In this document: piece by piece, positions 36,690 to 63,712 of the stretch
How the letters are laid out: every line of letters starts with the position of its first letter
Position numbering within the stretch: the first letter of the stretch is position 1
Notes under the pieces: model-generated
Seen by the model: the letters and a program-made list of their open reading frames with translations, nothing else
Told to the model about the DNA's origin: nothing
The model's database searches: none
Source of the DNA: Halobaculum halobium
Lineage (GTDB): Archaea > Halobacteriota > Halobacteria > Halobacteriales > Haloferacaceae
DNA: 64,000 nt
Assembly (NCBI RefSeq): GCF_030127145.1
Contig: NZ_CP126158.1
Span: 248,001 to 312,000, forward strand
Direction of reading: 5' to 3'
Position numbers and translations under genes: made by a program

Positions 36690-36691
36690 AG

Positions 36692-44663: not shown

Positions 44664-44930
44664 TCAGTCCGCCGTCCGCGGCTGTCCGAACGCGTCCTGC
44701 TCCATGAGCCGCTGTGCGGCGAGTCGCTCGACGACCTCGGTCTCCAACGGGTCGGGGACCTGCGCGTCGTCGACGAGCCGCACGAGGTAGACGCGCCGCC
44801 CGAGCCGATCGACCACGACGTTCTGCTCGCCCGGAATCGCGCCGTCCTCGTTGAGAACGCCGTCACGTTCGAGCCCGCACTTCGGGAGCGTCACCACACC
44901 GCTTTTCCCGCGCTTTCTGAGCTGTCGCAT
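44664..44930 (-). CDS. AbrB/SpoVT-like DNA-binding protein
   Basis: The 88-residue protein has an N-terminal swapped-hairpin-type segment (GKSGVVTLPKCGLERDGVL) and a C-terminal charged helix (LETEVVERLAAQRLM). It is divergent to the membrane-particle operon and shares the 150-base control region with it, so it is a candidate regulator of that operon. A TATA-like element on the minus strand at 44953-44960 gives a leaderless start. Confidence 0.7.
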   Translation of the reverse strand: MRQLRKRGKSGVVTLPKCGLERDGVLNEDGAIPGEQNVVVDRLGRRVYLVRLVDDAQVPDPLETEVVERLAAQRLMEQDAFGQPRTAD

Positions 44931-45080: not shown

Positions 45081-45236
45081 ATGGGATCGGACACCCCGCC
45101 GCCACGAGGCGGCACCGACGACGGTTTCGAGGAGCATCGTATCAAGCGCCCCAGCGAGCCGGGGCTCGACCTCACGCTCGGCGACGTAGCACGCGTCGAC
45201 GAGCACGTCGGCGATCTCGTCGGAGGTCGAGCGTGA
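45081..45236 (+). CDS. Short acidic protein, first gene of the membrane-particle operon
   Basis: Fifty-one residues: MGSDTPPPRGGTDDGFEEHR then a helix-prone stretch (DLTLGDVARVDEHVGDLVG). Its stop overlaps the next GTG (GTGA), so it is probably translated. No family is recognised. Confidence 0.5.
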   Translation: MGSDTPPPRGGTDDGFEEHRIKRPSEPGLDLTLGDVARVDEHVGDLVGGRA

Positions 45237-45463
45237 GTTCGCGGACGCTCGGGGAGGTGGTCAAAGGACTCCTGTCGGCACTCGGCGACGCCCTCGACGC
45301 GGTGATCGGCGCCGGCGAGAGCGAACCCGATCCCGACAACCGGCCGCCGATCACGCCGAGCGCGAAGGCGATCGAGACGTGGCCGACGGAGTCGCAACAC
45401 GAGCACGACCCGATCCAGCAACCGTTTCAGGGGCATCCGAAGCCGCTGGGGGGCGACCTGTGA
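45233..45463 (+). CDS. Small protein of the particle operon
   Basis: The 76-residue protein has a short amphipathic N-terminal helix (LGEVVKGLLSALGDALDAVI) and a disordered, Pro/Gln/His-rich C terminus (TPSAKAIETWPTESQHEHD). GTG start in overlap with the preceding stop and GTGA overlap with the next gene. No family is recognised; the helix could lie on a membrane surface. Confidence 0.6.
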   Translation: MSSRTLGEVVKGLLSALGDALDAVIGAGESEPDPDNRPPITPSAKAIETWPTESQHEHDPIQQPFQGHPKPLGGDL

Positions 45464-45699
45464 GCGAGTGCCCGTGGCCCGGCTGCGACGAGCTGCCGAC
45501 CGTGACCGTCGTCGAGCCACCGGCAGACGACGAGATCGAGCCCGGGATGTCCGGCGCACCAGCCGGCCGGTACTGTCCCGAGCACGCCCAACGCGTCCGC
45601 GACGGTGACTCGTGGTCGGTCGACGAGGTCGAACCCGATCGCGTCGAGTCCGAGGTGCGCTGGCAGGACTACTCGACAACGGAGGTCGGCGACGCGTGA
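45460..45699 (+). CDS. Small zinc-finger protein of the particle operon
   Basis: The 79-residue protein has four candidate zinc ligands: CPWPGCDELP at the N terminus and YCPEHAQRV in the middle. Overlaps on both sides couple its translation. This treble-clef-like pattern is common in haloarchaeal viral and plasmid proteins of unknown role. Confidence 0.65.
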   Translation: MSECPWPGCDELPTVTVVEPPADDEIEPGMSGAPAGRYCPEHAQRVRDGDSWSVDEVEPDRVESEVRWQDYSTTEVGDA

Positions 45700-45956
45700 G
45701 CACGACGGCGGAGGAGCGCGTTCGGTTCCTCGGCGCGGTGATCGTCACGTCGATCGTCTCGCTGTCGTTCACGCTGTCGGTGCTGCTCGACGGCGGACTA
45801 CTCGCGGCAGCGGCGTCGCTGCTGCCGCTCCCGCTGTGGGCGTACATCGCGTGGGAGGAACTCGGCACCGCGGCGCCGACGCGCGACCGCGAGACCGAGC
45901 TCGCAACGGACGGAGGAACACGGACTCGCCGCCCGGAAAGCGGCGATGACACATGA
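45696..45956 (+). CDS. Two-helix membrane protein of the particle operon
   Basis: The 86-residue protein has two hydrophobic helices (FLGAVIVTSIVSLSFTLSVL and LLAAAASLLPLPLWAYIAW) and a charged tail (TRDRETELATDGGTRTRR). GTG start by GTGA overlap; its stop overlaps the ATG of the large exported protein. Confidence 0.65.
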   Translation: MSTTAEERVRFLGAVIVTSIVSLSFTLSVLLDGGLLAAAASLLPLPLWAYIAWEELGTAAPTRDRETELATDGGTRTRRPESGDDT

Positions 45957-47473
45957 ACTTCAACGAGCTATTCAGCAAGCGAGCGGCGGCGCTCGCGATG
46001 GTGGTACTGCTCGTCGCCAGTTCGGGCGGAGCGCTCGCCCAGGCGGCGATGACGATCAACGATCCGACGCAGATCAACTACGAGAGCGACGCGGTGCAGA
46101 ACCCCGGCGTCGAGGTGACACTCGAAAAGGACACCCACCAAGTCGGGTGGGACACCGTCGAGTACGAGGGTGACGACGGTGAGGTGAAGACACCGGACGC
46201 CCGCGTGAACGACTCGGAGGCGAACCCGGTCGGGATCACCGCTACCGACATCGCGTTCGAGGATGCGGGTGCGTTCCCGCGGTACAACGAGAGCCACTCG
46301 GCGCTGCACGCCGACGAGTGGTCGACCGAGACGGGCGTCTCCGTCTCGAACACGACGACCGCGCCCGACGTGGACGCGCTGAACGTCGCGACGAACGGCT
46401 CGTTCTTTGACGGTAACTCGGCGACGGCGACGTACACACTCTCGGAGTCAATCGACTCTGACGAGAACAAGCGCTCGCTGCAGCTGTTCGCCGACGTGAA
46501 CACGCTGGACGCCGGCGCACACGTCGAGGTTCGGATCGTCGACGAGGACGGCGACTACAAGACCGCCGTGATCGACCCGGACAACTCGACGGACGCCGAC
46601 CACGTCTTGGCGAACGCGACTGGTGAGGGCTACGTCCTGCAGCACCAGCTCGGCAAGATGGACACGACGACCGTCGGCGGCTCCGACGGCGAGTTCGACA
46701 ACATGGCGTCCGTCGAGATCGTCGTGATGGACGGCGACGCCGACGTGTCGCTGTCGGTGATCAACGCCGAGAAGCTCGGCGAGTACACGCTCGGCGAGCA
46801 ACGCGTCGACACCGACGACGACGGCGAGAAAGACGACACGCGGACGATCACCGAGCCGAGCGGGACCTACTGGGTGACCGGCTACGACACGCTCGGCGAG
46901 ACGTTCTCGAACGCGACGATCGCAGGGTCAGAGGTCGCGATGATCTTCGACGCGTCGTCGCTCGAAACCGAGACGGACGCCCGGATCGAGTTCACCGACG
47001 ACCGCGGTGACTCGGGCGTGTACCCCGGCTTCGAGTTCATCGTCGACGTGTACTACCGGCTCAGCTTGCCGAGCGCGTACGACGTGAGCTACTCGAACGC
47101 AGAGCTGACCGACACGGTTGAGCGACCGTCGAGCCGGTACGAGACCGTCGAGTACGCGGAGGGCGTCTCCGACACCGAGTTCGAGGAGATCTCCTCGTGG
47201 TCGAGCGTGAAGTCGAGCTACGACTCGCAGGGCGACGAGGTGACGCTCGACTCGACGATCCAGCCGGGCCAGGAACTCGCGATCCACTACGAGTACCTCG
47301 TCACGGCCTCCGAGAAGGACACGTTCCCGGCGTCGAGCGGCGCGGCTCCCGGGCAGTACGCTGGTGAATCGGGCGGGTGGCTCTCGAACATCCCAATCGT
47401 TGGACAGTGGCTTGGTGGCATCGCGGCCGCCGTCGGCGCGCTGTTCGGCGGCAAGTGGGCGATGGGGAAGTAA
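45953..47473 (+). CDS. Exported, membrane-anchored protein; spike-like candidate
   Basis: The 506-residue protein starts with signal peptide MNFNELFSKRAAALAMVVLL then VASSGGALAQA. About 440 residues of acidic beta-rich ectodomain follow, with several Asn-X-Ser/Thr sites, and a C-terminal hydrophobic segment (NIPIVGQWLGGIAAAVGALF) ends in a short basic tail. Size, signal and C-terminal anchor match the plan of spike proteins of haloarchaeal pleomorphic viruses; I cannot show homology. The ectodomain ends with EYLVTASEKDTFPASSG before the anchor. Confidence 0.75.
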   Translation: MNFNELFSKRAAALAMVVLLVASSGGALAQAAMTINDPTQINYESDAVQNPGVEVTLEKDTHQVGWDTVEYEGDDGEVKTPDARVNDSEANPVGITATDIAFEDAGAFPRYNESHSALHADEWSTETGVSVSNTTTAPDVDALNVATNGSFFDGNSATATYTLSESIDSDENKRSLQLFADVNTLDAGAHVEVRIVDEDGDYKTAVIDPDNSTDADHVLANATGEGYVLQHQLGKMDTTTVGGSDGEFDNMASVEIVVMDGDADVSLSVINAEKLGEYTLGEQRVDTDDDGEKDDTRTITEPSGTYWVTGYDTLGETFSNATIAGSEVAMIFDASSLETETDARIEFTDDRGDSGVYPGFEFIVDVYYRLSLPSAYDVSYSNAELTDTVERPSSRYETVEYAEGVSDTEFEEISSWSSVKSSYDSQGDEVTLDSTIQPGQELAIHYEYLVTASEKDTFPASSGAAPGQYAGESGGWLSNIPIVGQWLGGIAAAVGALFGGKWAMGK

Positions 47474-47474
47474 G

Positions 47475-47891
47475 ATGTCGCAGGCAGAGCCGCTCACGCT
47501 GATCGAGAAGGCGCGCGGCCGAGGACTCACCGGGATCGCCAAACAGGGCATCGGCGGGTGGCTGCTGGCGCTGTCGTCGAGTCTCATCCTCGGCGTGCAG
47601 GCGCTCACTCAAGTCCTAATCGTCCCGATCGACCTGTTCGTCAACATCACCGAGGCGGCGGGAGAGGCGTTCATCGTCTCCCCGCTCGGCGTGGTGATCG
47701 CCGGAAGCGAGGCGTCCGCGCAGTCGATCGCGGAGTTCGAGTTCCTCGGGCTGCCGATCGGCACGGTCGTCGTGCTGGGGTCGTTCGCGATCGTGGCGCT
47801 GTACCTCCGGCAGCCGTGGTCCTCGGACTTCGTTCCGGGGACGTTCACCGACTCGCTGGGGACCGGGACCGAGGAGGAGGGCGAAGCGTAG
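47475..47891 (+). CDS. Membrane protein of the particle operon
   Basis: The 138-residue protein has about three hydrophobic stretches (GGWLLALSSSLILGVQAL, VLIVPIDLFVNITEAAGEAF, IGTVVVLGSFAIVALYL) and an acidic C terminus. It begins two bases after the preceding stop. The sequence is Gly/Ala/Val-rich like the other small membrane proteins of the operon, pointing to a membrane-embedded complex. Confidence 0.7.
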   Translation: MSQAEPLTLIEKARGRGLTGIAKQGIGGWLLALSSSLILGVQALTQVLIVPIDLFVNITEAAGEAFIVSPLGVVIAGSEASAQSIAEFEFLGLPIGTVVVLGSFAIVALYLRQPWSSDFVPGTFTDSLGTGTEEEGEA

Positions 47892-47892
47892 C

Positions 47893-47955
47893 ATGACCGC
47901 CAGCCGCCCGCAGCAGTCTCGAACTGGAGATCTCGTGAGGTGGCAGCGTGGCTGA
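47893..47955 (+). CDS. Twenty-residue basic micro-ORF
   Basis: Reads MTASRPQQSRTGDLVRWQRG then stop, overlapping the next GTG start at 47948. It fills an otherwise empty 56-base gap in an operon that has almost none. A similar micro-ORF occurs at 49145. It could be a translational coupling device rather than a functional peptide. Confidence 0.35.
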   Translation: MTASRPQQSRTGDLVRWQRG

Positions 47956-48322
47956 ACGGGATCAGGGCGGCGGCGGTGGCGCTATCAACGTCGGCGTACT
48001 CGCCGATCGGTTCCTCACCGAGAACAACAAGATCGCGGTCGGCGCGCTCGGCGGTGGCCTCGTGGGAGGCGGGCTGTACGCACTGCTGCAGGGGCTCGTC
48101 GGCGTCGTCCTGAGCGGCGGGGCGGCGATCGATCTGCTGCTACGGGGCTACGCGGAGGCGCTCACGTCGAACGTGAACGCGCTGCTCGACGGCCTGCAGG
48201 CCGAGGTCGCGGACGCATGGGATCCGTTCCAAGCGGGCGCGTTCTCGCTGCCGCTGAACCTGATCGTCGTGCTCGCCGGCATGGGAGTGCTCGCACTCGC
48301 AGTGTGGTGGTACCGTGGCTGA
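47948..48322 (+). CDS. Glycine-rich membrane protein of the particle operon
   Basis: The 124-residue protein has N-terminal GGGGGAINVGVLADRFL, hydrophobic helices at about residues 30-60 (IAVGALGGGLVGGGLYALLQ) and at the C terminus (LPLNLIVVLAGMGVLALAVW), with an amphipathic stretch between them. GTG start. Confidence 0.7.
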   Translation: MAERDQGGGGGAINVGVLADRFLTENNKIAVGALGGGLVGGGLYALLQGLVGVVLSGGAAIDLLLRGYAEALTSNVNALLDGLQAEVADAWDPFQAGAFSLPLNLIVVLAGMGVLALAVWWYRG

Positions 48323-48836
48323 CGAGCTCGGGATCTCGGACACGGAGGGAAGCGCCGGCTCGACGAGTTCGGCCGGCTCGGAGAGTGGCGGCGGCGGGCC
48401 GGTGCTGCCGTCGTGGCTCCCGAGCTCTCGGTCGGGGTTCCTGGCGCTCGTCCGGGGAGCTGTGTTCCGGCCGATCGTGAAGACGATCCTCGGGATCGCT
48501 GCGACGGCGTACGGAGCGGTCCTCACGCTGTTTCAGGGCTCCGAGCCGGGCTTTTCGCGCGAGGAGTCCGTGTGGGGACTCGCCGATCTGCTCCCCGCGC
48601 TGGCGTCGTACGGGCTCGACCTGATCGAGTTCGTGTACGGCGCCTACGTCGACGTGGGCTTGTTCATCGCGGGAGCGATCACGCCGTCGGTGTCGGGCCC
48701 TGTCGACGGGCTGATCCTGCTGGTGGTGTTCGCCGTCGAGGCGGTCGTCACCGTGTTCGTCCTGATCCGCGGGACGAGAGCGATCGCGGACGCGATCCCC
48801 GGCGTGTCCGGGGTCGAGACGTTCCTATTCGGGTGA
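48315..48836 (+). CDS. Multi-helix membrane protein of the particle operon
   Basis: The 173-residue protein has a disordered Ser/Gly-rich N terminus and about four hydrophobic segments (FRPIVKTILGIAATAYGAVL, WGLADLLPALASYGLDLI, VYGAYVDVGLFIAGAI, GLILLVVFAVEAVVTVFVLI). GTG start overlaps the preceding gene by eight bases. The helix count and small size resemble structural membrane proteins of lipid-enveloped archaeal viruses; function by analogy only. Confidence 0.7.
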   Translation: MADELGISDTEGSAGSTSSAGSESGGGGPVLPSWLPSSRSGFLALVRGAVFRPIVKTILGIAATAYGAVLTLFQGSEPGFSREESVWGLADLLPALASYGLDLIEFVYGAYVDVGLFIAGAITPSVSGPVDGLILLVVFAVEAVVTVFVLIRGTRAIADAIPGVSGVETFLFG

Positions 48837-48842
48837 TCACAG

Positions 48843-49148
48843 ATGGGAAAACTCAGAGACAAGACGACGGAGGTACTCACACACCCGGTTTCGGCGGCAG
48901 CGAGTGCGTTTGCCGCCCTCGGGAGCGTCCTGAACCCGGAGTTCGTGTTCGCGCTCGGCTCGGCGCTGTACGCTGCGGCGCCGAGCCTGTTTACGGGCTC
49001 GTCGATCGCGGCGTTCACGCTCCCCCAGGTGTTCCCGGGGCTATCGATTCTCAAGCCGGTGTTCCTCGCGATCGTCGCGATCGCGGGGCCGCTGTACCTC
49101 CTGCGGCTGGTGAACAGTTCGACGGATACGATCGAGGACGAACTATGA
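48843..49148 (+). CDS. Small membrane protein of the particle operon
   Basis: The 101-residue protein has charged leader MGKLRDKTTEVLTHPVSAAA and hydrophobic stretches across residues 18-85 (FALGSALYAAAPSLFTG, PVFLAIVAIAGPLYLLRLV). Its stop overlaps the ATG of the next micro-ORF (ATGA). Confidence 0.65.
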   Translation: MGKLRDKTTEVLTHPVSAAASAFAALGSVLNPEFVFALGSALYAAAPSLFTGSSIAAFTLPQVFPGLSILKPVFLAIVAIAGPLYLLRLVNSSTDTIEDEL

Positions 49149-49201
49149 CACGAGACACACAGAGCAAGACGAATCGCCGGCGGGCAGGGGGTGGTCGGTA
49201 G
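49145..49201 (+). CDS. Eighteen-residue basic micro-ORF
   Basis: Reads MTRDTQSKTNRRRAGGGR then TAG, which overlaps the following GTG (TAGTG). Together with the micro-ORF at 47893 it suggests that short basic peptides are used to keep ribosomes coupled along the operon, or that they bind nucleic acid. Confidence 0.4.
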   Translation: MTRDTQSKTNRRRAGGGR

Positions 49202-49632
49202 TGCCGACCGAGATCCTCTCGCTGCTCGCGGAGAACTGGATGTGGGTGATCGGCGCGACGTTGTTCGCGCTGATCGCGTACTGGGCTGTCGACGAGGGGC
49301 GAGACGCCGACGACCGCGTCGAGACGGTCGAACGCGTCACCGATCGCGCGGAGAACGCGACGGGCGGGTTCCTCTCGGGGGCCCGAGCGCTGCTGCTCGG
49401 CTTCGCCGGGATCGGCGTAACCGTCGCGGGCGAGCTGCTCGGGCTCGCAACAGCGCTGAACGAGCTACTCGGTGGGGTGCCGTACCTCGTCGGGATGCTC
49501 CTGTACGGCGGACTGAGCTTCGCAGGCGTCTATCTCGACGTGCGGCCGGCGACGCTGGGAATCGCGTTCCTGATCGTGTTCATGACGGTGTCGATGATGT
49601 GGATCGGGAACCGTCAGGGGAGGGCGGCGTAG
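49201..49632 (+). CDS. Four-helix membrane protein of the particle operon
   Basis: The 143-residue protein has hydrophobic segments at about residues 12-30 (NWMWVIGATLFALIAYW), 58-85, 92-112 and 115-135, and a charged loop (DEGRDADDRVETVERVTDRA) after the first helix. GTG start. Four helices in a 140-residue protein is the plan of VP3-like proteins of pleolipoviruses, an analogy only. Confidence 0.65.
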   Translation: MPTEILSLLAENWMWVIGATLFALIAYWAVDEGRDADDRVETVERVTDRAENATGGFLSGARALLLGFAGIGVTVAGELLGLATALNELLGGVPYLVGMLLYGGLSFAGVYLDVRPATLGIAFLIVFMTVSMMWIGNRQGRAA

Positions 49633-49633
49633 C

Positions 49634-49741
49634 ATGGTCGCCGCCGAGATCGTCACCGGCGCGTTCGAGGTACTCGCAACCGGCGCGAGAGTGACCGTCG
49701 AGGCGATCTCGGCGGGATGTTTCGCGGGGGTACTCGCGTGA
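49634..49741 (+). CDS. Short hydrophobic peptide of the particle operon
   Basis: Thirty-five residues (MVAAEIVTGAFEVLATGARV, then TVEAISAGCFAGVLA). The stop overlaps the next GTG (GTGA). Its continuous coupling to both neighbours supports translation. Confidence 0.45.
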   Translation: MVAAEIVTGAFEVLATGARVTVEAISAGCFAGVLA

Positions 49742-51438
49742 AGCGAGCACTCCTCGCGACGCTGCTCGTCGTGTCGCTCGTGGTGCCGCTCGTCGCCGTC
49801 GGCGGGGCCGTCGCCGACGGTCACGACGGAGCGGCCAACGAGACCGACACGGACAGCGAGGCGTACACGTACGAGGACCTGAAGCGCGGCGGGACGACCT
49901 ACGAGAGCGCGCCGTCCTCGATGCGGTTCCTCGGCGACTACAGCAGCGCGACCGTCCGCGTGTTCCCGGTCGGACCGGGTGAGTCGGGCTGGCACTACCT
50001 CGAACGCGGCGAGGTGGTCAACTCGAATTCGGTGCAGCTACGGACGGTTCGACTCGCTCCCGTGGACGAGCTCGACCGGACGCTGAACGTTACCGTCGTC
50101 GCGTGGCAAAAGGGCACCCGGACGGTCGAGCGCGGGAACTCGACCGTCGAGGAGACGGTTGCGACGAACGTGACCGTGCGGCGCCAGCAGATCGAGGCGG
50201 GGCGCGGCTACGACACGGCGAACGTCTCGCTCGGTCAGCACTACGACTCGACCTACCAGATCACGATGTGGGTCGAGGAGAACCCCGACTCGCGCTGGCG
50301 GTTCGCGCATCGCTCGGTCGAGACGACGCGGGCGCTGCCGTTCGTTCCGACGTGGGGCGGCTACTGGTCGTTCACCACGACGAACGTCCTGCTGTGGATC
50401 GTCGTGCTGACCGGCGTCACCGTGGTCGGCGCCGTGGGCTCAGTCGAGATCACCGGCAAGGGCCCGGGGCTCGGGCTCGTCACGTGGGCGATCATCATCG
50501 CGATCGGCTCGGCAACGGTCGGCATCGGCGCGTTCGTGTGGACGGCGTCGTTGCTGTCGGCGGCGCCGCCGGTGATCGCGTTCGTAATCGCGGCGGTGAT
50601 CGGGATCGTCGTGCTCGAAACGACCGAGAAGGGCGTGTTCAGCGTCGCGCTCATGCGGTTGTTCACTGAGGAGAAGAAGAACCCACGCGGCGACTTCGCG
50701 AAGGAAGCACGAGAGGCCGAGTTCGAGAAGGTGACGCTGGCGAACACGGCGACCGGGACGAAGGTGATCAAGCCGGGGCTACGGCCGTGGCTCGCCCGGT
50801 TGCGGACCGGCGGCACGGAGTTCGTCGGGCTCGAACGCATCGAGTTCGAGTTCGACCTCGGGAGCCCGGAGGTGCCGTTCACCGAGAGCGTCGCGGATAA
50901 ACTGATCTTCGTCGACGAGGACGGCGTCGGAGACGACGGTGAGCTCGTGACCGCTTCGCCGTCGACGGTCGAGTGGGACCTCCCGCTGCGCGTCGAGACC
51001 GACGACGGCGTTCGAACGAACTGGACGGCGGTGTTCTCGCTGGCGTTCCACGCTCTCGTACCGTTCGCGCTGGCGTACCAGACGATGAGCTATCTGGGAG
51101 TCGGCGGCGGGCGCGTCGTCGGGGCGTTGTTCGCCGCTGTCGTCGTGTACGCGGTTCACACCCGGGTCACCGAGGGCCGTGCAGAGTTCATGCCCGCGGT
51201 TGGCATGACACAAGACGCGGTCGCGACAGCGATGCACCTGCAGTCGGAGGTCGACGACTACCAGACGCTCGAAAAGGCGCTCTCCGCGCTCGTCGACGAA
51301 CGGAACTCGACGGACGAGTTGATCGAGACGCTGCAGGAACTCGACGCGGAGGCGGCCGTGCGAGACGCATCGCGACGTGACACGAGCCCGGGATCGTTCG
51401 CCGAGGGGACGAACCCGACTGCGGAGGCTGACGACTGA
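49738..51438 (+). CDS. Large exported/membrane protein of the particle operon
   Basis: The 566-residue protein starts with signal peptide MKRALLATLLVVSLVVPLVA. An ectodomain of about 180 residues with many Asn-X-Ser/Thr sites follows, then a cluster of hydrophobic helices (about residues 220-305), a charged soluble domain (about 310-430), two further helices (about 435-480) and a cytoplasmic tail with coiled-coil character (DYQTLEKALSALVDERNS). It spans the membrane several times and has domains on both sides, which suits a protein linking an outer surface layer to the interior. No family is recognised. Confidence 0.7.
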   Translation: MKRALLATLLVVSLVVPLVAVGGAVADGHDGAANETDTDSEAYTYEDLKRGGTTYESAPSSMRFLGDYSSATVRVFPVGPGESGWHYLERGEVVNSNSVQLRTVRLAPVDELDRTLNVTVVAWQKGTRTVERGNSTVEETVATNVTVRRQQIEAGRGYDTANVSLGQHYDSTYQITMWVEENPDSRWRFAHRSVETTRALPFVPTWGGYWSFTTTNVLLWIVVLTGVTVVGAVGSVEITGKGPGLGLVTWAIIIAIGSATVGIGAFVWTASLLSAAPPVIAFVIAAVIGIVVLETTEKGVFSVALMRLFTEEKKNPRGDFAKEAREAEFEKVTLANTATGTKVIKPGLRPWLARLRTGGTEFVGLERIEFEFDLGSPEVPFTESVADKLIFVDEDGVGDDGELVTASPSTVEWDLPLRVETDDGVRTNWTAVFSLAFHALVPFALAYQTMSYLGVGGGRVVGALFAAVVVYAVHTRVTEGRAEFMPAVGMTQDAVATAMHLQSEVDDYQTLEKALSALVDERNSTDELIETLQELDAEAAVRDASRRDTSPGSFAEGTNPTAEADD

Positions 51439-52352
51439 TGTCGTCGGATCTCCCGTCGCTCGGCTCGACGATCGAGAACACCGACGAGACGGCCACGGCG
51501 GCCGTCGACGGTCTCGGCGACGCGCTCGCACAGCTCGACGGGGTTCGAGCGGGCGAGGTCGACGAGTCGGTGCTCCCGGAGTTCGAGCGCGAGGACACGT
51601 CCGACGAGATCGTCTCGACGCGGCCGGCGCTGCAGGCGCTCAACGAGCAGCAACTCGACGCGCTGCGGGAGTTCAGAGACGAGGGCGTCGAGCATCGCCC
51701 GGCGCTGCTCCGGTGGCTGCTGCGGCTGCAGTACCGGACGCTGGGGCGGCTCCCGGACTACTGGTACTTCCACATCGCGACGGACCCGACGGCGCTTGCG
51801 TGTGTCCTCACGGGGCCCACGCGGGGCGTCTACAACCGCCGCGGCGAGACGAACGTCACGCCGAAAGAGGCGTGGGGGACGCGCCGGCGACTCGTCGCGC
51901 GGTACCTCCGACCGGCGTGTCGCGAGGCGTTCCGGTTCCTGCGGCCGAAGGCGACGGAGTACCTCGACGACGAGTACGACCCGGAGAAGATGGCAGCGCT
52001 GGCGATGCGGCCGGCGCTCGACGAGCACTACCAGCGTCAGGAGGAGGCACTTGCCGAGTTCCATGAGGGGTTCGAGTCGGCGGACGTGCTCGACGCGTGG
52101 CTGCAGCGGCTCGACGCGGCGACGTTCGGGACGATGAAAGCGGTCCACCCGGAGTTCGACTACGAGCTGACGACGACCCGGCTGCAGCCGGAGCTGTCGA
52201 CGAGTTCTGAGCAGATGTACGTCGAGGCACGCGAGCGGATCATCGCGCGGTTCCTGCTGCCGGCGTGCAACGTGGCCGTCCGGGAGCTGGCGGAGCGAGC
52301 GGGCGAATCGGACGATCAGGAAACCACCGCGAGCAGCGGGGTCGAACTATGA
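51438..52352 (+). CDS. Soluble helical protein upstream of the particle ATPase
   Basis: The 304-residue protein has no membrane helices. It is rich in Arg, Glu and Leu, with helices such as EQQLDALREFRDEGVEHRPA and RRLVARYLRPACREAFRFLR and another conserved-looking segment (IIARFLLPACNVAVRELAE). The two similar RYLRPAC/RFLLPAC segments suggest an internal duplication. It shares one base with the previous gene and four with the ATPase gene, so it may be the ATPase's partner. Confidence 0.65.
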   Translation: MSSDLPSLGSTIENTDETATAAVDGLGDALAQLDGVRAGEVDESVLPEFEREDTSDEIVSTRPALQALNEQQLDALREFRDEGVEHRPALLRWLLRLQYRTLGRLPDYWYFHIATDPTALACVLTGPTRGVYNRRGETNVTPKEAWGTRRRLVARYLRPACREAFRFLRPKATEYLDDEYDPEKMAALAMRPALDEHYQRQEEALAEFHEGFESADVLDAWLQRLDAATFGTMKAVHPEFDYELTTTRLQPELSTSSEQMYVEARERIIARFLLPACNVAVRELAERAGESDDQETTASSGVEL

Positions 52353-53647
52353 GTAAGACACAACAGACCCACGAGACGACACGAGCAGAGATCGTCGAGG
52401 CGTTCGAAGCGGAGACGCGGACCTCGACGTACCGCGGCACGAGCTACGGGATCACCGACGCCGCGTCGATGCGACGCGATCACGGGCTCCGACCGTTCTG
52501 GAAACAACTGTACGAGACGACCGACGCGACGACGATCGACACAACCGCGGACGCGGTGGCGTACCCGGGCGTCGTTCCGGACTGTCTGATCCACCTGCGG
52601 CGCGACGAGCGAGAGCTGCTCAAGCGCGACGACCCGGACCTGTCGAACCTCCCGAAAGCACGGCGGAACGTGCTGCGGTGGCTCGCCGTCGACGACGACG
52701 CGCTTGCCAAGATGTCGATCGGCGGGACGGACGTACTGGCGACGGGACAGCCGGGCTCGGGGAAGTCGACGCTCGGGAACGACCTGGCGCGGCAGGTCCT
52801 CGAACTCAACCCGGAGGAGGCGTTCGTGTGGCGCGGCACGCCGTCGCGAGCGGAGTGGACGCCGCTCGCACCGTGGACGAAGCTCCTGCTCCCGTCGAGC
52901 GTCGAGTCGAGCGTACGGGTGCAGCCGCCCGCACACGCGTCGGGCTCGTTCACGCTCGACCCCGAGAACGTGGCACGCGAGGTCGTGTACTACGACGACG
53001 TGTACGACCTGCTCGGAGAGTTCGAGGCCGGCACATTCCACGTCGTCTATCCGGATCCAGCGGGGCGCGGTATCGCGGACGTGTTTCAGCGCTCGCCACG
53101 GACGGACCACTTCGAGTGGGTCAACGACGCGAGCATGGCCGACGAGAGCGAGTACGACACGCCGACGCCGCTGTCACACTGGTGGTTCGGGTTCGTGGTC
53201 GCGCTCGTCGACGAGGCGGGGCCGGAGGCGCTCTCGCTGCTGCTCGACGAGGTGGGCGACCTCCTGCCACAGGCCGCCCGCAGCGGTCCGAAGAACCACA
53301 ACTGGTACGAGAAGATCGAGGCGTTCCGCGACGCGCTCGTCGACGCGCGCAAGAACAACAAGACGCTGTTCATGATGGGCCACAACGAGGCCGACGTTCA
53401 CGATCTCGTCCGGCGGAAGCTACGCTGGCGGGTGACGATGCCCGGGTGGCCGAACCCGACGGCTGGCGACAGCGTTGTCGGGTTCAAATCGGCCCCGATG
53501 CACGAGCAGCACACGCAGTACATGACGGTGGGGCGGGGGCTGTGGTGGAACGCGCTGCACTACACGAAGTTCAGCTGGGGCGACCTCGCCAAGCCGACAG
53601 TCGCGAAGGTTGCTGTCGAGCTCGGCGGTCGGGGTGATCGTCGATGA
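52349..53647 (+). CDS. P-loop ATPase of the particle operon
   Basis: The 432-residue protein has Walker A TGQPGSGKST (about residues 132-141) and a Walker-B strand ALSLLLDEVGDLLPQ (about 290-305). A later segment, NNKTLFMMGHNEADVHD, fits a sensor strand ending in Asn/His. The order is compatible with the FtsK/HerA-like or VirB4-like packaging ATPases of enveloped archaeal viruses; no membrane helix is present. The C-terminal region (MPGWPNPTAGDSVVGFKSAP) has no recognised motif. It could drive DNA loading or particle assembly; inference from context. Confidence 0.8.
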   Translation: MSKTQQTHETTRAEIVEAFEAETRTSTYRGTSYGITDAASMRRDHGLRPFWKQLYETTDATTIDTTADAVAYPGVVPDCLIHLRRDERELLKRDDPDLSNLPKARRNVLRWLAVDDDALAKMSIGGTDVLATGQPGSGKSTLGNDLARQVLELNPEEAFVWRGTPSRAEWTPLAPWTKLLLPSSVESSVRVQPPAHASGSFTLDPENVAREVVYYDDVYDLLGEFEAGTFHVVYPDPAGRGIADVFQRSPRTDHFEWVNDASMADESEYDTPTPLSHWWFGFVVALVDEAGPEALSLLLDEVGDLLPQAARSGPKNHNWYEKIEAFRDALVDARKNNKTLFMMGHNEADVHDLVRRKLRWRVTMPGWPNPTAGDSVVGFKSAPMHEQHTQYMTVGRGLWWNALHYTKFSWGDLAKPTVAKVAVELGGRGDRR

Positions 53648-53829
53648 TCGACGGGGTCGATCGGCGCCAGCGAGCCGGAGCAGTCAGATATCTGACGCCA
53701 GACGTACGCGCGCGTAACGAATCGATTAGGACAACCCCCCGGGGGCGGGTGCGCGCCGTTGCTTCGAGCGCTCGCGTCGGGCCAACGCGTGAGCGGGCGA
53801 GCGCCTCGGAGGTGGTTGCTCGTGCGTGA
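53644..53829 (+). CDS. Small basic protein of the particle operon
   Basis: The 61-residue Arg/Ala-rich protein reads MIDGVDRRQRAGAVRYLTPD, then RNESIRTTPRGRVRAVASSA. Its start overlaps the ATPase stop and its end overlaps the GTG of the giant surface protein by eight bases. Its basic nature in an acidic proteome suggests nucleic acid binding, but low complexity also fits a coupling ORF. Confidence 0.45.
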   Translation: MIDGVDRRQRAGAVRYLTPDVRARNESIRTTPRGRVRAVASSARVGPTRERASASEVVARA

Positions 53830-56800
53830 TCGGACACGCCGCGCGTCGGCGATCGCGTTCGTCGCGCTGCTGCTCGTGTCGACGGTCGCGGTCGGCATCC
53901 CGCTGGCGAGCATGAACGCGGCGGCGGCTCCGTCAGGCATGGTCGCGCTCGACGGTTCGTCGATCACCGAGGAGGTACCGAGTGGCGAGTCGATCCCGGC
54001 GAACGCCTCGGAGTTCGAGGGGCGGATCTACTCGACCGAGCACGCGGAGTCGATGTCGCTGACGCTCACAACCGGCGGACACGCTGACGAGGTGATGAAC
54101 TCCGACGCGGTCCGCCTTGACGGCGAGGGCATGGTGCTGGTGCTCGCCGACGACGAGAACCACGGCGCTCGCGAGGTCGCGATCGAGGCGACGGTGCTCT
54201 CGAACTCGCTGGGGTACGTGCCGAAGTGGGCCGTCGGAACACACGAAGACGGCTCGACGTGGAAGCGGCCGGTCACGTACGAGGACGGTTACGTGCGGTT
54301 CGAGGTACCGCACTTCTCCTCGAACGCGGTGAGCTTCGAGTCGGAGGTCGAGATCACGGCGGACGCTGCAGTGAACGCGTCGGCGTTCGAGTACGATATC
54401 GCCGACGGCGGGCTCGACGCGGCCTCGAAGCCGACGGCGAACTGGACAGGCGTCACGAACACCGAGTGGGACAACGAGTCGGCGTCGGCAGTGGCGAACG
54501 GCGGCTCGGTGAGCGTGCCGGTCGCGGGCAACCTCGCGCCGACGGACGAAACGGTGACGTTCGGCGGCACGGAGACACTATTCGCCGAGACGCGCTCGGG
54601 GACGAGCGTCACTGAGGGCGACACGGCGACGATCTCGGTGAACGGCGACGCGGCACCGCGGAACGGCGAGGTGACGTTCTACGGGAGCGGCTCGTCGAAC
54701 TCACGGACGGTGTCGGTGACAGGTGCAAGCGACGGATCCACCAAAGCGTATGATGTCGGTGGTAATCTCGCGCCGACGGGCGAGTCGGTGACGTTCACCG
54801 GCGAGACACAAACGACCAACGGCGATCAGTCATGGTCTGGCGTCTCACTCGGTAACTCGGTATCTCTCTCGAATCCCGGCAATATCGAGCCGGCAGGACC
54901 GGGCAGTAACAACAATCCGACGGTAACGGTCACGCCTCAAGCAAGTAGCAAGCAAAACCCGAACGGCGGTCAGACGGCCTATACCGTCCCAACTATCGCG
55001 GATGGAACGAGCGCTCAGGTGGTCGTGAAGGAGACCGGCGGGACCGTCACACAAGTCGAGTTCTACATCAATTCCTTGTCCGGAAACCCGACGGCGGACA
55101 TCTACATCAATGGGAACGGGCTGGACCAGTCACTTCAGGACGGCACACAAGTCCGTGATAGCTATGCGATCTCGTCGGGTTGGAACACCCTATCGATCTC
55201 GTCGGTCGACACCGGGACGGGGCCGGTGACGATCGAGTTCGTCGACGACGGCGCGAACGGCGGAGATAGCGCCTCACTCGGTGGTGACTCAGGTGGCTCT
55301 GGATACGTCGAGTATAATGACGGTTCGTGGACGGATTCCGGACGGATTCCGGCGGTATCAGCGACCTACAAACTCGCAGAGAGTGTCTCGGTCGATGGCG
55401 TATCCTACGGGACCGTCACCTCCTCGGAAACGCAAACAATCGATATAACGGCGAGTCAGGAGTCGCTCTCGACTTCGGGCTCCGGAACTGTCGATATATC
55501 GATCGACAAGACCGATCGAACGGCGACGGAGGATCCGAGTGTGGACCTCGACGACGACGGCACCGCCGAGGCCTCCGTCTCGGGTATCCTTACCGACGGC
55601 GAGACAGCGACCGTCTCCTCTTTCGACGTGTCGACGGGCTCACAGACGACGACGACCAACACCAACGCCGGATCTACCGTCAGCTGGGACTTCGACTTCA
55701 CCGAGGAGTCGGGAGTCAAGGATCCGACCGTCGACATCGACGACGACGGCCAGATCGACGCGAGCTACTCGGGCGTGCTTCGCGACGGCGAGACCGCGAC
55801 GGAACCGGTGTCGCTGTCGACCGGGTCGAAGACGCTCGACTTCGGCGGCAGTGGCTCGACGTACGACTGGGAGCTGGCGTACGACCGGGTCGAGCACACG
55901 GAGAACCCGAGCGTCGACGTGGACAACGACGGCACTGCAGAGGCGACGTACACGGGCACGCTCGGGCCGTCGGAGTCGGTGACGAAGGCGGTCAACCTCT
56001 CGACTTCGACCTCGTCGGTGGACGTGTCGACGAGCTCGTCGACGACCGTCGACGTGACCGTGTCGTTCAAAGAGCGGACCGGGACCGACGGCGCCGTGCT
56101 CGTCGTGAACGGCAACGAGACACTCCCGACCGGCACGCTGGCGGACGGCGAGCAGGCGAACGCGACGCTGTCGACGGACGTGCTCCGCGAGGGCTCGAAC
56201 GACGTGCGGGTCGAACTCGCGGATGGGTTCCTGTCGACGGATGCGCCGGAAATGCAGGTCGGACTCGTCTACTCGCATGACACGCTCGACCGCAAGACGG
56301 TGGTGTACTCGGCGGAAAAGTGGTCGGAGCGATACAACGTGAGTAAGACGTTCGCCTCCGAGCGCGCCGAGGCGTCGATGAACATCACGTTCGAGCAGAA
56401 CGTCGTCGAGATCCGGACTGTCGAGTACCGCGTGAACGAGTCGGGCTCGTGGACGGCGCTCGGGCCGGACTACTACACGCTCGACGGGAACGATATCAGC
56501 GTCGACCTCGACGACGCCTACGGCGGAGAGATCCCCGCGAACACGACGATCGAGGTGCGCACGAACGGCTCGCGAGTACAGACGAATGGGATGCAGATCT
56601 CGGTCACCGAGGCGACGACGACGGGCGACACTCTCGACTCGGAGATCTCGGTCGACACGGTGACGACGGGCGAACCGTCGTGGATCGGCGTCGGGCCGAC
56701 CTCGGACGGCTCGCGTGTCCACTACAGCTACGACGAGAGCTACGGCTCGGCGTCGGACTACACGGTGATCGAGGCGAACGGCGACCAACAACTGCACCTG

Positions 56801-57727
56801 CCGAACGCGGAACCGGGCGACACGCTTCGGGTGACGCACCTGCCGGTGTCGGCGTCGCCGGCGAAGGGCGACGTGAAGCTGACCGTCGAGGACAGCGGCG
56901 GCGACCCGGAAATCGGCGTGTATCCCGGCCCGGACGGTGAGGGCGACGCCGTCGAGTTCGGCTACTACGACACCACAGACGGCACGAAGTACCTGCTGTA
57001 CTCCGAGACGAGCGGGATCGTCCGAGACTCGGCGACGGCGAACTCGCCGGTGTTCCTCACCGACGACGACTCGAAAGAACTGCTCGTGATCCGGACGGAG
57101 AACACGAGCACGTCGAGCACCGACGACTCGTCGAGTGACTCAGGGCCGTTCGTGCCGGCCGGACAGTTCGGCGAGGAGTCCAACGGAGGCGTCTCGCTGG
57201 GGATGCTGGCACTGATCGGCGTCCCGCTGCTGGGGCTCGCCGGCGCGGTGGTCGTGTACCGGCGGCGCGGTGGCGACACGACGGAGGATGCGTCGACGCC
57301 GGTTCGCGTGGCCTCGACGGTCGGGCGCGCGGTCTCGACGGGCGTGCGGACGCTCTCGGGAGAACCGCGCGTGGTCGCCGCGCTGTCGGTCTTGGGCGGC
57401 ATCGCGCTCGTGCTGACGGGTGCGGTGTCGCTCCCGCCGGGGACGGGCCTACTGCTCGTGATCGCCGGCCTGCCGCTGGTGACGTTCCTCGTACTGCGGC
57501 GTCTCGACTCGTGGTCGCCGCTCGTGTTCGGGACAGTCTCGACGGTCGCGGTCGTGCTCGGGCTGCAGCTGCTCGGCGCCGACCCGGTCGGACAGGTTCT
57601 CGACGCACTCGGGCCGGGCGTGCTCATCCTCGCGCTCGGGCTGTTGGTGCTGGCGTACCAGGGGATTCAGGCGGCGCGGGCGCCGGAGGAGGTGAACGAG
57701 ATCAACATCGGGGACGGCGACGCATGA
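53822..57727 (+). CDS. Giant surface protein of the particle operon
   Basis: The 1301-residue protein starts at GTG 53822, where MRDRTRRASAIAFVALLLVS is a standard signal peptide. Residues about 230-360 contain two related beta-rich units (NLAPTDETVTFGG, NLAPTGESVTFTG). Three repeats of about 60 residues follow at about 570-740, each with a DPSVDLDDDG-type acidic turn that could bind calcium. A large mixed region follows, then a Ser/Thr/Asp-rich linker and about five hydrophobic helices from residue 1120 on (LGMLALIGVPLLGLAGAVVV, VVAALSVLGGIALVLTGAV, VLILALGLLVLAYQGIQAA). It is probably the main exposed protein of the particle or of producing cells. Confidence 0.75.
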   Translation: MRDRTRRASAIAFVALLLVSTVAVGIPLASMNAAAAPSGMVALDGSSITEEVPSGESIPANASEFEGRIYSTEHAESMSLTLTTGGHADEVMNSDAVRLDGEGMVLVLADDENHGAREVAIEATVLSNSLGYVPKWAVGTHEDGSTWKRPVTYEDGYVRFEVPHFSSNAVSFESEVEITADAAVNASAFEYDIADGGLDAASKPTANWTGVTNTEWDNESASAVANGGSVSVPVAGNLAPTDETVTFGGTETLFAETRSGTSVTEGDTATISVNGDAAPRNGEVTFYGSGSSNSRTVSVTGASDGSTKAYDVGGNLAPTGESVTFTGETQTTNGDQSWSGVSLGNSVSLSNPGNIEPAGPGSNNNPTVTVTPQASSKQNPNGGQTAYTVPTIADGTSAQVVVKETGGTVTQVEFYINSLSGNPTADIYINGNGLDQSLQDGTQVRDSYAISSGWNTLSISSVDTGTGPVTIEFVDDGANGGDSASLGGDSGGSGYVEYNDGSWTDSGRIPAVSATYKLAESVSVDGVSYGTVTSSETQTIDITASQESLSTSGSGTVDISIDKTDRTATEDPSVDLDDDGTAEASVSGILTDGETATVSSFDVSTGSQTTTTNTNAGSTVSWDFDFTEESGVKDPTVDIDDDGQIDASYSGVLRDGETATEPVSLSTGSKTLDFGGSGSTYDWELAYDRVEHTENPSVDVDNDGTAEATYTGTLGPSESVTKAVNLSTSTSSVDVSTSSSTTVDVTVSFKERTGTDGAVLVVNGNETLPTGTLADGEQANATLSTDVLREGSNDVRVELADGFLSTDAPEMQVGLVYSHDTLDRKTVVYSAEKWSERYNVSKTFASERAEASMNITFEQNVVEIRTVEYRVNESGSWTALGPDYYTLDGNDISVDLDDAYGGEIPANTTIEVRTNGSRVQTNGMQISVTEATTTGDTLDSEISVDTVTTGEPSWIGVGPTSDGSRVHYSYDESYGSASDYTVIEANGDQQLHLPNAEPGDTLRVTHLPVSASPAKGDVKLTVEDSGGDPEIGVYPGPDGEGDAVEFGYYDTTDGTKYLLYSETSGIVRDSATANSPVFLTDDDSKELLVIRTENTSTSSTDDSSSDSGPFVPAGQFGEESNGGVSLGMLALIGVPLLGLAGAVVVYRRRGGDTTEDASTPVRVASTVGRAVSTGVRTLSGEPRVVAALSVLGGIALVLTGAVSLPPGTGLLLVIAGLPLVTFLVLRRLDSWSPLVFGTVSTVAVVLGLQLLGADPVGQVLDALGPGVLILALGLLVLAYQGIQAARAPEEVNEINIGDGDA

Positions 57728-58017
57728 GCCTCCTCGAACCCCTGCTCCGGTTCCTCGGCGTGCCGGGGACGATCGTCACCGCGGCGGTGATCGCGTTCTC
57801 GGCGTATCACGCGAAGCACCTGCTCGACGTGTTCACCCGCGTCGGTGTGTGGGTCAGGATCGGCGGGGCGGCGGTCGTGCTCTTGGTGATCTTCGCCGTG
57901 CTCGTGCCGGGGTTCACGCTCTCGCTCGACGTAGGGCGGTTGCTCGGGTTCGGTGGCGACCTCGTCGACGGCGTGCTCGATCTGGCGCGGCTGGTGCCGT
58001 GGGGTGAGTTAGTGTGA
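57724..58017 (+). CDS. Two-helix membrane protein of the particle operon
   Basis: The 97-residue protein has hydrophobic segments PGTIVTAAVIAFSAYHA and VRIGGAAVVLLVIFAVLV and an amphipathic C terminus (GGDLVDGVLDLARLVPWG). ATGA overlap with the giant protein and GTGA overlap with the next gene. Confidence 0.65.
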   Translation: MSLLEPLLRFLGVPGTIVTAAVIAFSAYHAKHLLDVFTRVGVWVRIGGAAVVLLVIFAVLVPGFTLSLDVGRLLGFGGDLVDGVLDLARLVPWGELV

Positions 58018-58418
58018 ACGAACTCCTCGTCGCGTCCGTAGTAGTGTTCCTGGCACTCGGCGTGTTCGAGGAGTACCGCGACCAATTACCGACGCGCGTC
58101 CGAGTAGCGCTTGGCGACCTCGACCTCGACGACCCGCGGACGGTCGAGGAGATCCGTGAAGCGTACCTCCGTGACCACATCGGCGACCGGGAGTTCGAGC
58201 GGCGGCTCGGCGTCGCGATCGACGAGGACGCCGCGCAGCTGCGACGGGTCGCGGAGAGCGTCTCGGGGATCGGCCCGGATACGTCGTGGTCGCTCGTCGC
58301 GCAGGGCTACCGGAGCGAGCGACAGGTACGCGACGCGAGCGTCGACCAACTCGCTGACGATGTACCGAACGTCGGCGAGCAGCGTGCCGGGCAACTTCTG
58401 CGGACTGTCGACGAATAG
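58014..58418 (+). CDS. Membrane-anchored helix-hairpin-helix protein, last gene of the particle operon
   Basis: The 134-residue protein has a short N-terminal hydrophobic helix (LLVASVVVFLALGVFEE). A soluble part includes a short domain (DDPRTVEEIREAYLRDHIGD REFERRL) of the SHOCT-like kind, then two helix-hairpin-helix elements (VSGIGPDTSWSLVAQGYRS and VPNVGEQRAGQLLRTV). HhH pairs bind DNA backbone non-specifically. One membrane anchor plus an HhH domain would tether DNA to the inner face of a membrane. Confidence 0.7.
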   Translation: MNELLVASVVVFLALGVFEEYRDQLPTRVRVALGDLDLDDPRTVEEIREAYLRDHIGDREFERRLGVAIDEDAAQLRRVAESVSGIGPDTSWSLVAQGYRSERQVRDASVDQLADDVPNVGEQRAGQLLRTVDE

Positions 58419-58721
58419 GACACCGCCGGCGGTACGGAAGCGGGGCGGGAGGGCGCCGGGTCAGGCGCCCGTAATGCGGGGGGCGGCCGAACGCGCCGAA
58501 GGCGCGTGAGGTACTTTCGGAGTGTGGATTCTTATCCACACGCCTAACGGAGAACGGTAGCCCCCGGGCGCGGTTTCGACGGGATCTCGCCGCGGCGCTG
58601 TCGGTCACCAGCGCGGAATCCTCGAGGAACACAAGCGAACTTTAGCGTAACGTATTTGAATACAAACGGACTTTCGCAAGAAGAGACGAACGCGAGTGTT
58701 GCCACTCGAAACCCGCCGCTG
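58419..58721. other. Convergent intergenic region with three hairpins
   Basis: It separates the rightward particle operon from the leftward zinc-finger/methyltransferase operon. Apart from the hairpins no gene is visible. Confidence 0.6.
58451..58541. terminator. Three consecutive hairpins, probable bidirectional terminator
   Basis: GGGCGCC/GGCGCCC (58451-58470, loop six), ACGCGCC/GGCGCGT (58491-58507, loop three) and GTGTGGAT/ATCCACAC (58522-58541, loop TCTT) all have perfect stems. They lie between two operons that end toward each other. The last is also a candidate protein-binding palindrome. Confidence 0.5.
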
Positions 58722-60941: not shown

Positions 60942-61186
60942 TCGCCGTCACCTCGCCGGTCACGAGCAGCCTCTCTGTGGCGCTCGTTCCAATCGAGGAA
61001 CTCGGCGAACTGCCGCTCCTCAACCCGTGTCGGCCGACGGAGGAACGCGCTGCACTCGCGGCAGTGACCGATGAACTCACCCGCCGCGGCGTCGATGTGG
61101 TGCTCGGTCCCGCAGTTCTCGCACGCGATCCGCGGAACTCTGTGGGGACCGAGACGGCGACGGCGCGTCGACGGTGTCTCGATCAC
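60938..61186 (-). CDS. Zinc-finger mini-protein
   Basis: The 82-residue basic protein has CENCGTEHHIDAAAGEFIGH then CRECSAFLRR, a typical four-cysteine ribbon. It starts at a GTG overlapping the stop of the upstream mini-gene. Confidence 0.65.
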   Translation of the reverse strand: MIETPSTRRRRLGPHRVPRIACENCGTEHHIDAAAGEFIGHCRECSAFLRRPTRVEERQFAEFLDWNERHREAARDRRGDGE

Positions 61187-61311
61187 GCCTCGTCACCACC
61201 GAGCAGGTCGTCGCAGTTCGAGCAGGTGAACACGCCCGGCGAAATCTCACGGACGTTCCGACGCTTCCCGCAACCGCGGCAGATGTCGGAGCGAGGGTAG
61301 GCGGCGCTCAC
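61183..61311 (-). CDS. 42-residue zinc-ribbon mini-protein
   Basis: Reads MSAAYPRSDICRGCGKRRNV, then GVFTCSNCDDLL: two CxxC pairs that form a minimal zinc ribbon. GTG starts overlap stops on both sides. Confidence 0.6.
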   Translation of the reverse strand: MSAAYPRSDICRGCGKRRNVREISPGVFTCSNCDDLLGGDEA

Positions 61312-61433
61312 GCGGCCTCACCCCGGAACCGCGAGAAGTGCTCGCTGCGAGTCCACGGAACGACGCGCGCATCACCGCCGCCGTAGGCCCACACCGTCGC
61401 CCCGAGCAGGTGCAACCGACTGATCGCTGTCAC
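61308..61433 (-). CDS. 41-residue mini-protein
   Basis: Reads MTAISRLHLLGATVWAYGGG, then DARVVPWTRSEHFSRFRGEA. GTG start overlaps the upstream stop. No cysteines or recognised motif; translation is supported only by the coupling. Confidence 0.45.
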   Translation of the reverse strand: MTAISRLHLLGATVWAYGGGDARVVPWTRSEHFSRFRGEAA

Positions 61434-63392: not shown

Positions 63393-63712
63393 CGCTGCTC
63401 ACCTCCGTCGGTCTCGACGCGATCGGCGCCGTCGACGACCTCGCGCCACCCCTCGACTTCGTCTGCAGGGTCGTAGACGCGAGCGACGACGACCGTCTCG
63501 ATTGACCCGTCGTCGCTCACGTCGATCCGTTCGAGCGTGTTCTCGCCGGTGTGGTCGTAGGAGTGCGAGAACTGCGTGCCGCAGCCGCGACAGACGAGCA
63601 CGTCGTCGCGTTCGTAGTACAGATCGCCGTCGCAGTCGGGATCGGTGCAGCCGCGGAACGCGCCGTCGGAGTAGTTCTCCGCGTCGGCGACGGTGACGAG
63701 CGGGACGTTCAC
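63389..63712 (-). CDS. Zinc-ribbon protein of the methyltransferase operon
   Basis: The 107-residue protein has two cysteine pairs: CTDPDCDGDLYYERDD and CRGCGTQFSHSY. An acidic, helical C terminus follows. Overlaps on both sides. Confidence 0.65.
   Translation of the reverse strand: MNVPLVTVADAENYSDGAFRGCTDPDCDGDLYYERDDVLVCRGCGTQFSHSYDHTGENTLERIDVSDDGSIETVVVARVYDPADEVEGWREVVDGADRVETDGGEQR

Follow-up and report, generated by a model that had tools for sequence, protein, structure and literature searches.

A candidate operon for capsid-less enveloped particles on a probable temperate virus-like element of Halobaculum halobium

Halobaculum halobium carries a 13-kb run of membrane-protein genes, and the question raised by this locus is what the genes build and in what kind of genetic element they reside. 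The window analysed here is a stretch of 64,000 nucleotides (NZ_CP126158.1, positions 248,001 to 312,000), of which positions 45081-58418 are filled by a single run of plus-strand genes with high GC content at third codon positions (GC3). An initial annotation had read this run as a factory for vesicles or pleomorphic virions. The explanation we favour, with a probability of roughly two in three, is a temperate virus-like Halobaculum element in which a backbone of the betapleolipovirus/LSV-48N type is joined to an operon of unrelated virion genes that would build an enveloped particle without a capsid.

Gene calls and counts of transmembrane (TM) helices were made with simple scripts. The operon comprises about 17 genes with overlaps at 11 of the 16 junctions, most by 4 bp (GTGA/ATGA), so that the tight organisation described initially holds while the number of genes, then put at about 20, is lower. 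Its products include three large exported membrane proteins of 506, 573 and 1301 residues (a spike-like, a multi-pass and a giant protein), seven small membrane proteins and, in the middle as first described, a P-loop ATPase of 432 residues with a soluble helical neighbour of 304 residues. Of the sizes given earlier those of 506 and 1301 residues stand, and the multi-pass protein has 573 residues from its ATG in place of 566. Hydrophobic segments (Kyte-Doolittle) number two in the spike-like, five in the multi-pass and six in the giant protein, two in each of the proteins starting at 45696, 47475, 47948, 48315, 49201 and 57724, and one in that at 48843, in keeping with the claim that most products carry a signal peptide or membrane helices. 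The small open reading frame (ORF) 53644-53829 is doubtful since it is present otherwise only in the sister element described below. As the initial annotation had stated, no capsid, portal, terminase or tail genes were found in Pfam and PHROG scans of the larger ORFs, and homology to the structural genes of tailed or icosahedral viruses was rejected on these scans. The Pfam scans, which covered the larger ORFs and part of the small ones, showed neither relaxase nor VirB4/VirD4 genes. Weak Pfam matches to Nramp, Usp and the like were treated as noise.

The operon is located inside an element integrated in a tRNA-Ala(GGC) gene. A 14-bp repeat, TGGACTCGGTGGGA, is found at 18792, 42 bp past the end of an integrase gene, and its second copy ends the tRNA-Ala(GGC) gene. 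In four congeners (G139, G242, G223 and G243) the element is absent, and an uninterrupted tRNA-Ala gene separates the gene of the left flank from the right flank. The repeats and the four empty sites delimit an element of about 45.36 kb (18792-64154, window coordinates continued) with the attachment (att) repeat, integrase and empty site in relatives that characterise tRNA-targeting mobile elements. The initial annotation had named two findings that would speak against its reading, a cluster outside any mobile context and homology to a chromosomal surface appendage; neither was made, and the cluster belongs to a tRNA-integrated element. A sister element of about 29 kb resides in an intron-containing tRNA-Trp gene of G139, with its own 15-bp repeat, and its module proteins are mostly 73-87% identical to those of the window.

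All ORFs of the element were searched against twelve haloarchaeal viruses. Homologues of the integrase, Orc1/Cdc6, the repressor, the border regulator, Rep and the att-proximal gene were found in SNJ2, HRPV-9 and LSV-48N (Table 1). Rep is of the HRPV-3 ORF9 type, a hallmark of betapleolipoviruses, with E values of 1e-52 to 2e-67 to isolates, and has an origin hairpin downstream. DUF7845 proteins are Rep-Arvir rolling-circle initiators, as shown genetically for SNJ2, and their origin is a hairpin 176-197 nt behind rep (PMC13107129). The window Rep retains E25, the KHYY motif and the catalytic tyrosine that is Y283 in the SNJ2 protein, and the predicted origin hairpin, GTGTGGATAAGAATCCACAC, lies 180 nt downstream of rep. 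Its counterparts are GTGTGGCTAAGGCCA in SNJ2 and GTGTGGCTAAAGAGCCACAC in LSV-48N, and a hairpin of the same form is found at the same place in SNJ2, HGPV-1, HRPV-3, HRPV-10, HHPV-3 and LSV-48N. The stems vary in sequence among elements and base pairing is maintained. A TAAG-loop hairpin within 400 nt behind rep is present for 18 of the 42 rep genes of loci carrying the same gene cassette, mostly at 168-188 nt, as compared to a frequency of 0.6% in shuffled sequence.

In SNJ2 and HRPV-9 the structural genes sit between a small divergent regulator and a convergent rep, and the 13-kb operon lies in the same position here. Judged by gene order, the operon occupies the slot of the virion genes in these viruses. 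Among 74 cassette loci, duplicates from genomes fetched twice included, rep is near the cassette in 52, mostly convergent and 4-9 kb downstream of the ATPase gene. The strongest links to pleolipoviruses, Rep, integrase, Orc1/Cdc6 and the origin hairpin, are all outside 45081-58418 and had not been used in the initial annotation.

The protein families of the operon are not assembled by chance, since their order is repeated at about 40 further loci. This order, spike, small membrane proteins, 573-residue protein, duplicated protein, ATPase and giant, extends over several families of haloarchaea. The ATPase is present in 44 of 242 Halobacteria genomes, and most of the cassette was found in each of the 32 named loci that were fetched independently. 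Element size ranges from 16.5 to 45 kb, and copies of the module are also found on plasmids of 100-163 kb. A contig of 16,546 bp (L049) holds the whole cassette together with Rep; no terminal overlap was found at its ends, and it is probably a circle since the gene order continues across them. Between the window and G139 the ratio of nonsynonymous to synonymous substitutions (dN/dS) is 0.20-0.65 over the module (ATPase 0.20, spike 0.36, giant 0.61) and the module is therefore under purifying selection. The giant is the fastest-evolving large protein, 54% identical to its G139 copy as compared to 73-87% for most module proteins, and the centre of its gene displays zero DNA similarity to the sister. 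This pattern of divergence fits a host-recognition protein.

Some further occurrences were recorded. Halobaculum litoreum (G242) has two related copies of the cassette element near both ends of its chromosome contig (C1 20001-60000 and 2735001-2775000; L110-L113). Related ATPases (1e-21 and 3e-20) were found in members of the same phylum outside the Halobacteria (L198, G557:C83; L199, G482:C20), where they adjoin other membrane-protein genes and a weak Rep-like match, possibly indicating a further virus group. A haloarchaeal cassette contig labelled Rhizobium sp. S152 (L144, NZ_JAUDRZ010000015.1) is most likely a contamination.

The individual proteins were examined for structure and remote homology. 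The spike-like protein consists of a signal peptide, an all-beta ectodomain with a jelly roll resembling carbohydrate-binding modules (CBM), a glycine-rich linker and a C-terminal hydrophobic helix. Its AlphaFold2 model has a predicted local distance difference test (pLDDT) score of 85.5, above 90 through most of the ectodomain. Its Foldseek neighbours, at low template-modelling scores, include several CBM families as well as the turret protein of Haloferax tailed virus 1 (HFTV1). Pleolipovirus spikes share a conserved four-helix N1 domain (PMC10599561); the all-beta model is not of this V-shaped, VP4 type. No pleolipovirus spike was among the 50 best PDB or BFVD matches, the VP4 content of BFVD being unchecked, and the spike family aligned to ten VP4 proteins reached 16% by hhalign. 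In the 573-residue protein a signal peptide and an external beta domain are followed by several TM helices and a cytoplasmic beta domain, and its AlphaFold2 model gave no viral match in BFVD. The 304-residue protein is made of two copies of a domain of about 110 residues (hhalign of the halves 99.5%, E 3e-22). When these two families were compared to ten pleolipovirus ORF6/ORF7 proteins by hhalign, ORF6 reached 26% over 33 columns and the rest stayed below 15%; no ORF6- or ORF7-like protein is thus recognised between spike and NTPase. Nor did any window ORF match the ORF6-type region of HRPV-3 (5064-5459) at E 0.01. The giant protein has a signal peptide, a long beta region and C-terminal TM helices. 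Spike, 573-residue, 304-residue and giant proteins had no match above noise in Pfam, PHROGs or NCBIfam, and profile searches of PDB returned nothing for the spike, the giant and the duplicated protein. None of the five small membrane families exceeded 15% against nine VP3 proteins by hhalign, which is weak evidence as short hydrophobic proteins align poorly.

The ATPase carries a Walker A motif (G133-x-x-G136-x-G138-K139), a Walker B motif (D300-E301) and R334. Its hhalign alignment to pleolipovirus VP8 starts at Walker B, spans about 115 columns with the common region GH-x-x-x-D-H/D-x-x-x-RR and reached 76% (95% when reversed), and the VP8 family phrog_1979 was matched by 3 of 20 ATPase members (5e-6). 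Unrelated P-loop families reach similar hhalign scores against the ATPase, on Walker A. Common descent with VP8 is on these grounds no more than plausible, and Pfam suggests a weak relation of both the module ATPase and the His2 NTPase to Zot. A defence function for the ATPase (PADLOC mad8, 6e-7) was rejected, the match being to a generic P-loop and without partner genes, and so was a match to an LSV-48N "ATPase" that is an Orc1/Cdc6 protein. The initial remark that the operon does not match the pleolipovirus core and may represent a distinct lineage agrees with these results, in which VP4, ORF6/ORF7 and VP3 are unmatched and the link to VP8 is weak.

How such an element might function can be outlined from its genes. 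The integrase would excise the element, and circularisation would bring the integrase and rep operons together, as has been demonstrated in SNJ2. Rep-Arvir would then nick the hairpin and start rolling-circle replication, as its conserved residues and the origin suggest. Spike, 573-residue protein and giant would be exported to the cell membrane, which the small two-helix proteins may shape or line. The VP8/Zot-like ATPase and the duplicated helical protein could act at the cytoplasmic side of the 573-residue protein in DNA loading or budding. Particles would exit without lysis, and one may speculate from fold, variability and analogy that the giant and the CBM-like spike bind glycans of the host surface.

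Several observations weigh against this explanation. Only the ATPase, and that weakly, has a recognisable virion homologue among the module proteins, and the predicted particle could be pleomorphic, spindle-shaped or a plasmid vesicle. Rep-Arvir/DUF7845 proteins are known also from plasmids and integrative conjugative elements (PMC13107129), and an element of 45 kb far exceeds any pleolipovirus in size. The ATPase and the giant had no match among the INPHARED records searched by tblastn. Scans of IMG/VR with the module were likewise negative, by a method that detects close relatives only: the control query, HRPV-3 VP8, retrieved its own virus and an 89% relative, and alignments A3 and A6 were left out for their too high variability. 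No CRISPR (clustered regularly interspaced short palindromic repeats) spacers against the module were found, the 20 candidate short DNA matches being without repeat arrays.

The main rival keeps the provirus and gives it a spindle-shaped (lemon) particle like those of LSV-48N and the fuselloviruses, the giant serving as tail or attachment protein and the major coat protein being among the small two-helix proteins. LSV-48N is lemon-shaped (PMC12714723) and also encodes a 904-residue surface protein and many small membrane proteins, and it is the closest relative by Rep (1e-146) and integrase (1e-78). Because it uses the same replication and integration genes, the naked-membrane particle is put forward as a prediction, and the shared backbone makes the spindle the foremost alternative. 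However, no module family matches structural proteins of LSV-48N or His1 by profile (below 16% except for the P-loop), and LSV-48N lacks equivalents of the 506-residue spike, the 573-residue protein and the duplicated protein. We consider a spindle particle rather unlikely.

Somewhat less likely still is a plasmid or integrative element, not a virus, which spreads in vesicles of its own making as conceived for pR1SE; the particle would be mechanistically near-identical. The accessory cargo (CBASS-like cyclase and effector, PolB, methylase), the module copies on large plasmids and the variable element size all suit this idea. The reported core of pR1SE-like elements, an S8 protease (ORF7) and a VirB4/HerA-like ATPase (ORF25) (PMC10818511), is however not in the element: PF00082 proteases in this genome are found only at C1:911995 and C1:1089200 and DUF87 (HerA/VirB4-type) proteins only at C1:640750 and C1:2613557, all outside it, and the module ATPase has no DUF87-type Pfam match. 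The dedicated integrase, repressor and Rep moreover match known viruses. The parallel to pR1SE drawn in the initial annotation consequently holds as a functional concept and fails for these hallmarks. It is improbable that the operon is the cargo of an integrative element and encodes an apparatus for contact-dependent DNA transfer or surface adhesion. ATPase, multi-pass and large adhesin-like proteins could build an export complex, and integrative conjugative elements are known to carry DUF7845 (PMC13107129). Against this, the element has no VirB4/VirD4-type ATPase, no relaxase was seen among the larger ORFs, as noted initially for conjugation genes, and the cassette in most loci lies beside Rep in the viral structural slot, travelling with viral backbone genes.

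With the enveloped particle as the preferred reading, one may tentatively go further, at somewhat less than even odds, and regard the cassette as founding a new haloarchaeal virus group of family rank. Its virions would be enveloped and without a capsid, with a non-VP4 spike, a hypervariable giant attachment protein and a VP8-like motor, on a backbone common to pleomorphic and lemon-shaped viruses, and the group would be present in about one-sixth of haloarchaeal species genomes but overlooked by virus-finding tools. Should the particle prove real, the absence of this common virus-like lineage from IMG/VR and phage collections would be due to virion genes that are unlike anything catalogued. 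One archaeal backbone would then have been paired with three or more unrelated particle-gene sets (those of pleomorphic and of lemon-shaped viruses and the window operon), and the origin of vesicle-like virions and the border between virus and plasmid vesicle would become directly testable in cultured strains. A literature search found no description of the cassette, and unsearched papers may exist.

Most of the low-GC region between 22 and 44 kb is missing from the G139 sister; the region carries cargo. An oligonucleotide cyclase like those of cyclic oligonucleotide-based antiphage signalling systems (CBASS; PADLOC Cyclase 3e-89) is followed by a 2TM effector (3e-46; 28631-30326, plus strand), and the two are an anti-phage pair carried as cargo of the element. 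PolB is encoded with two companion genes (34158-37444, minus strand), and the same set adjoins the cassette on the 163-kb plasmid of Halosegnis marinus (L040:27580-30655). A second, short integrase-like protein (42531-43247, minus strand; phrog_1 5e-26) is kept in the sister elements of G139, G063 and G223, and 38296-39201, in the low-GC cargo region, is an imperfect tandem repeat whose unit measures about 327 bp.

Table 1. Features of the H. halobium element in window coordinates.
Feature	Position	Strand	Evidence and remarks
attL core TGGACTCGGTGGGA	18792..18805		exact 14-bp repeat; empty site in four congeners
attR, 3' end of tRNA-Ala(GGC)	141 bp past window end (L042:141-154)		second copy of TGGACTCGGTGGGA
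Tyrosine integrase beside attL	18847..19947	-	PF00589 2.3e-7; LSV-48N 1e-78, HRPV-9 3e-57, SNJ2 2e-54
Four small genes read with integrase (recombination-accessory position)	19914..21199	-	SNJ2-like layout; homologues beside integrase in G139 and G063 elements
PhiH1-like repressor	21858..22151	+	HRPV-9 2e-14, SNJ2 2e-11, LSV-48N 2e-8
Orc1/Cdc6 replication protein	27176..28474	-	LSV-48N 6e-54, SNJ2 gp8 3e-51; TIGR02928 1.4e-32, under its cut-off
Family B DNA polymerase (PolB, accessory)	34158..36365	-	NF004418 9e-273; also beside module on Halosegnis marinus plasmid
Small divergent regulator	44664..44930	-	HRPV-9 6e-10, SNJ2 1e-3; phrog_14267 4e-16
Four small leader genes	45081-45236, 45233-45463, 45460-45699 (Cys/His-rich), 45696-45956 (2 TM)	+	kept mainly in sister Halobaculum elements
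Spike-like protein	45953..47473	+	family in 34 loci; AlphaFold2 pLDDT 85.5; Foldseek
Five small membrane proteins	47475-47891, 47948-48322, 48315-48836, 48843-49148, 49201-49632	+	positions alike across loci
573-residue protein	49717..51438	+	AlphaFold2 pLDDT 78.5; 40 loci
304-residue duplicated-domain soluble helical protein	51438..52352	+	hhalign of halves; 40 loci
P-loop ATPase, VP8/Zot-like	52349..53647	+	phrog_22963 in 20/20 members scanned; profile match to pleolipovirus VP8; 42 loci
1301-residue giant surface protein	53822..57727	+	39 loci; 54% identity to sister, dN/dS 0.61
Small membrane protein, 2 TM	57724..58017	+	
N-terminal hydrophobic helix and helix-hairpin-helix domain	58014..58418	+	PF14520 1e-7
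Predicted rolling-circle origin hairpin GTGTGGATAAGAATCCACAC	58522..58541	-	place and form as in six viruses
Rep-Arvir (DUF7845 and winged helix-turn-helix) rolling-circle initiator	58722..60941	-	PF25227 8e-87; LSV-48N 1e-146, HGPV-1 2e-67, SNJ2 1e-63; catalytic Tyr kept
Rest of rep-side operon: DUF6884, C5-cytosine methylase, small zinc proteins	60938..63996	-	
SNJ2 gp25-like att-proximal gene	63709-63996	-	SNJ2 8e-19

The element was also compared with named systems. With pR1SE and apHPV it shares the concept of a mobile element that encodes an ATPase and an operon of membrane proteins but no capsid; it differs by its viral-type replication genes and by the absence of the S8 protease and the VirB4/HerA-like ATPase, and by these two hallmarks, the comparison having been made by hallmark families only, it is not pR1SE-like. 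Related ATPases of about 29% identity are encoded on the Haloarcula marismortui plasmids pNG100-pNG400 (L041) and on a 100-kb plasmid of H. taiwanensis (L081); the latter carries most of the cassette, whereas pNG100 is without the rest of it. LSV-48N (Haloferax virus, PP151251) is the nearest by Rep (40% identity over 89%) and by integrase, shares Orc1/Cdc6 and repressor and is alike in the composition of its surface and small membrane proteins, but differs in gene order and in the three missing equivalents; hmmsearch with the module families, and hhalign against seven LSV proteins, revealed only generic P-loop similarity. SNJ2 and HRPV-9 resemble the element most broadly, in integrase, Orc1/Cdc6 (SNJ2), repressor, border regulator, Rep-Arvir with its hairpin and att-proximal gene, and also in tRNA integration, a plus-strand structural slot and the order from spike through membrane proteins to NTPase. 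Their structural genes are nevertheless non-homologous except possibly for the NTPase, their spike is V-shaped unlike that of the window, the protein of 1.3 kilo-residues is extra here, and elements with the cassette measure 16.5-45 kb as compared to 7-17 kb. By the structural core of the family, of which only VP8 has a possible counterpart here, the element is not a pleolipovirus, although it bears the replication hallmark of the betapleolipoviruses.

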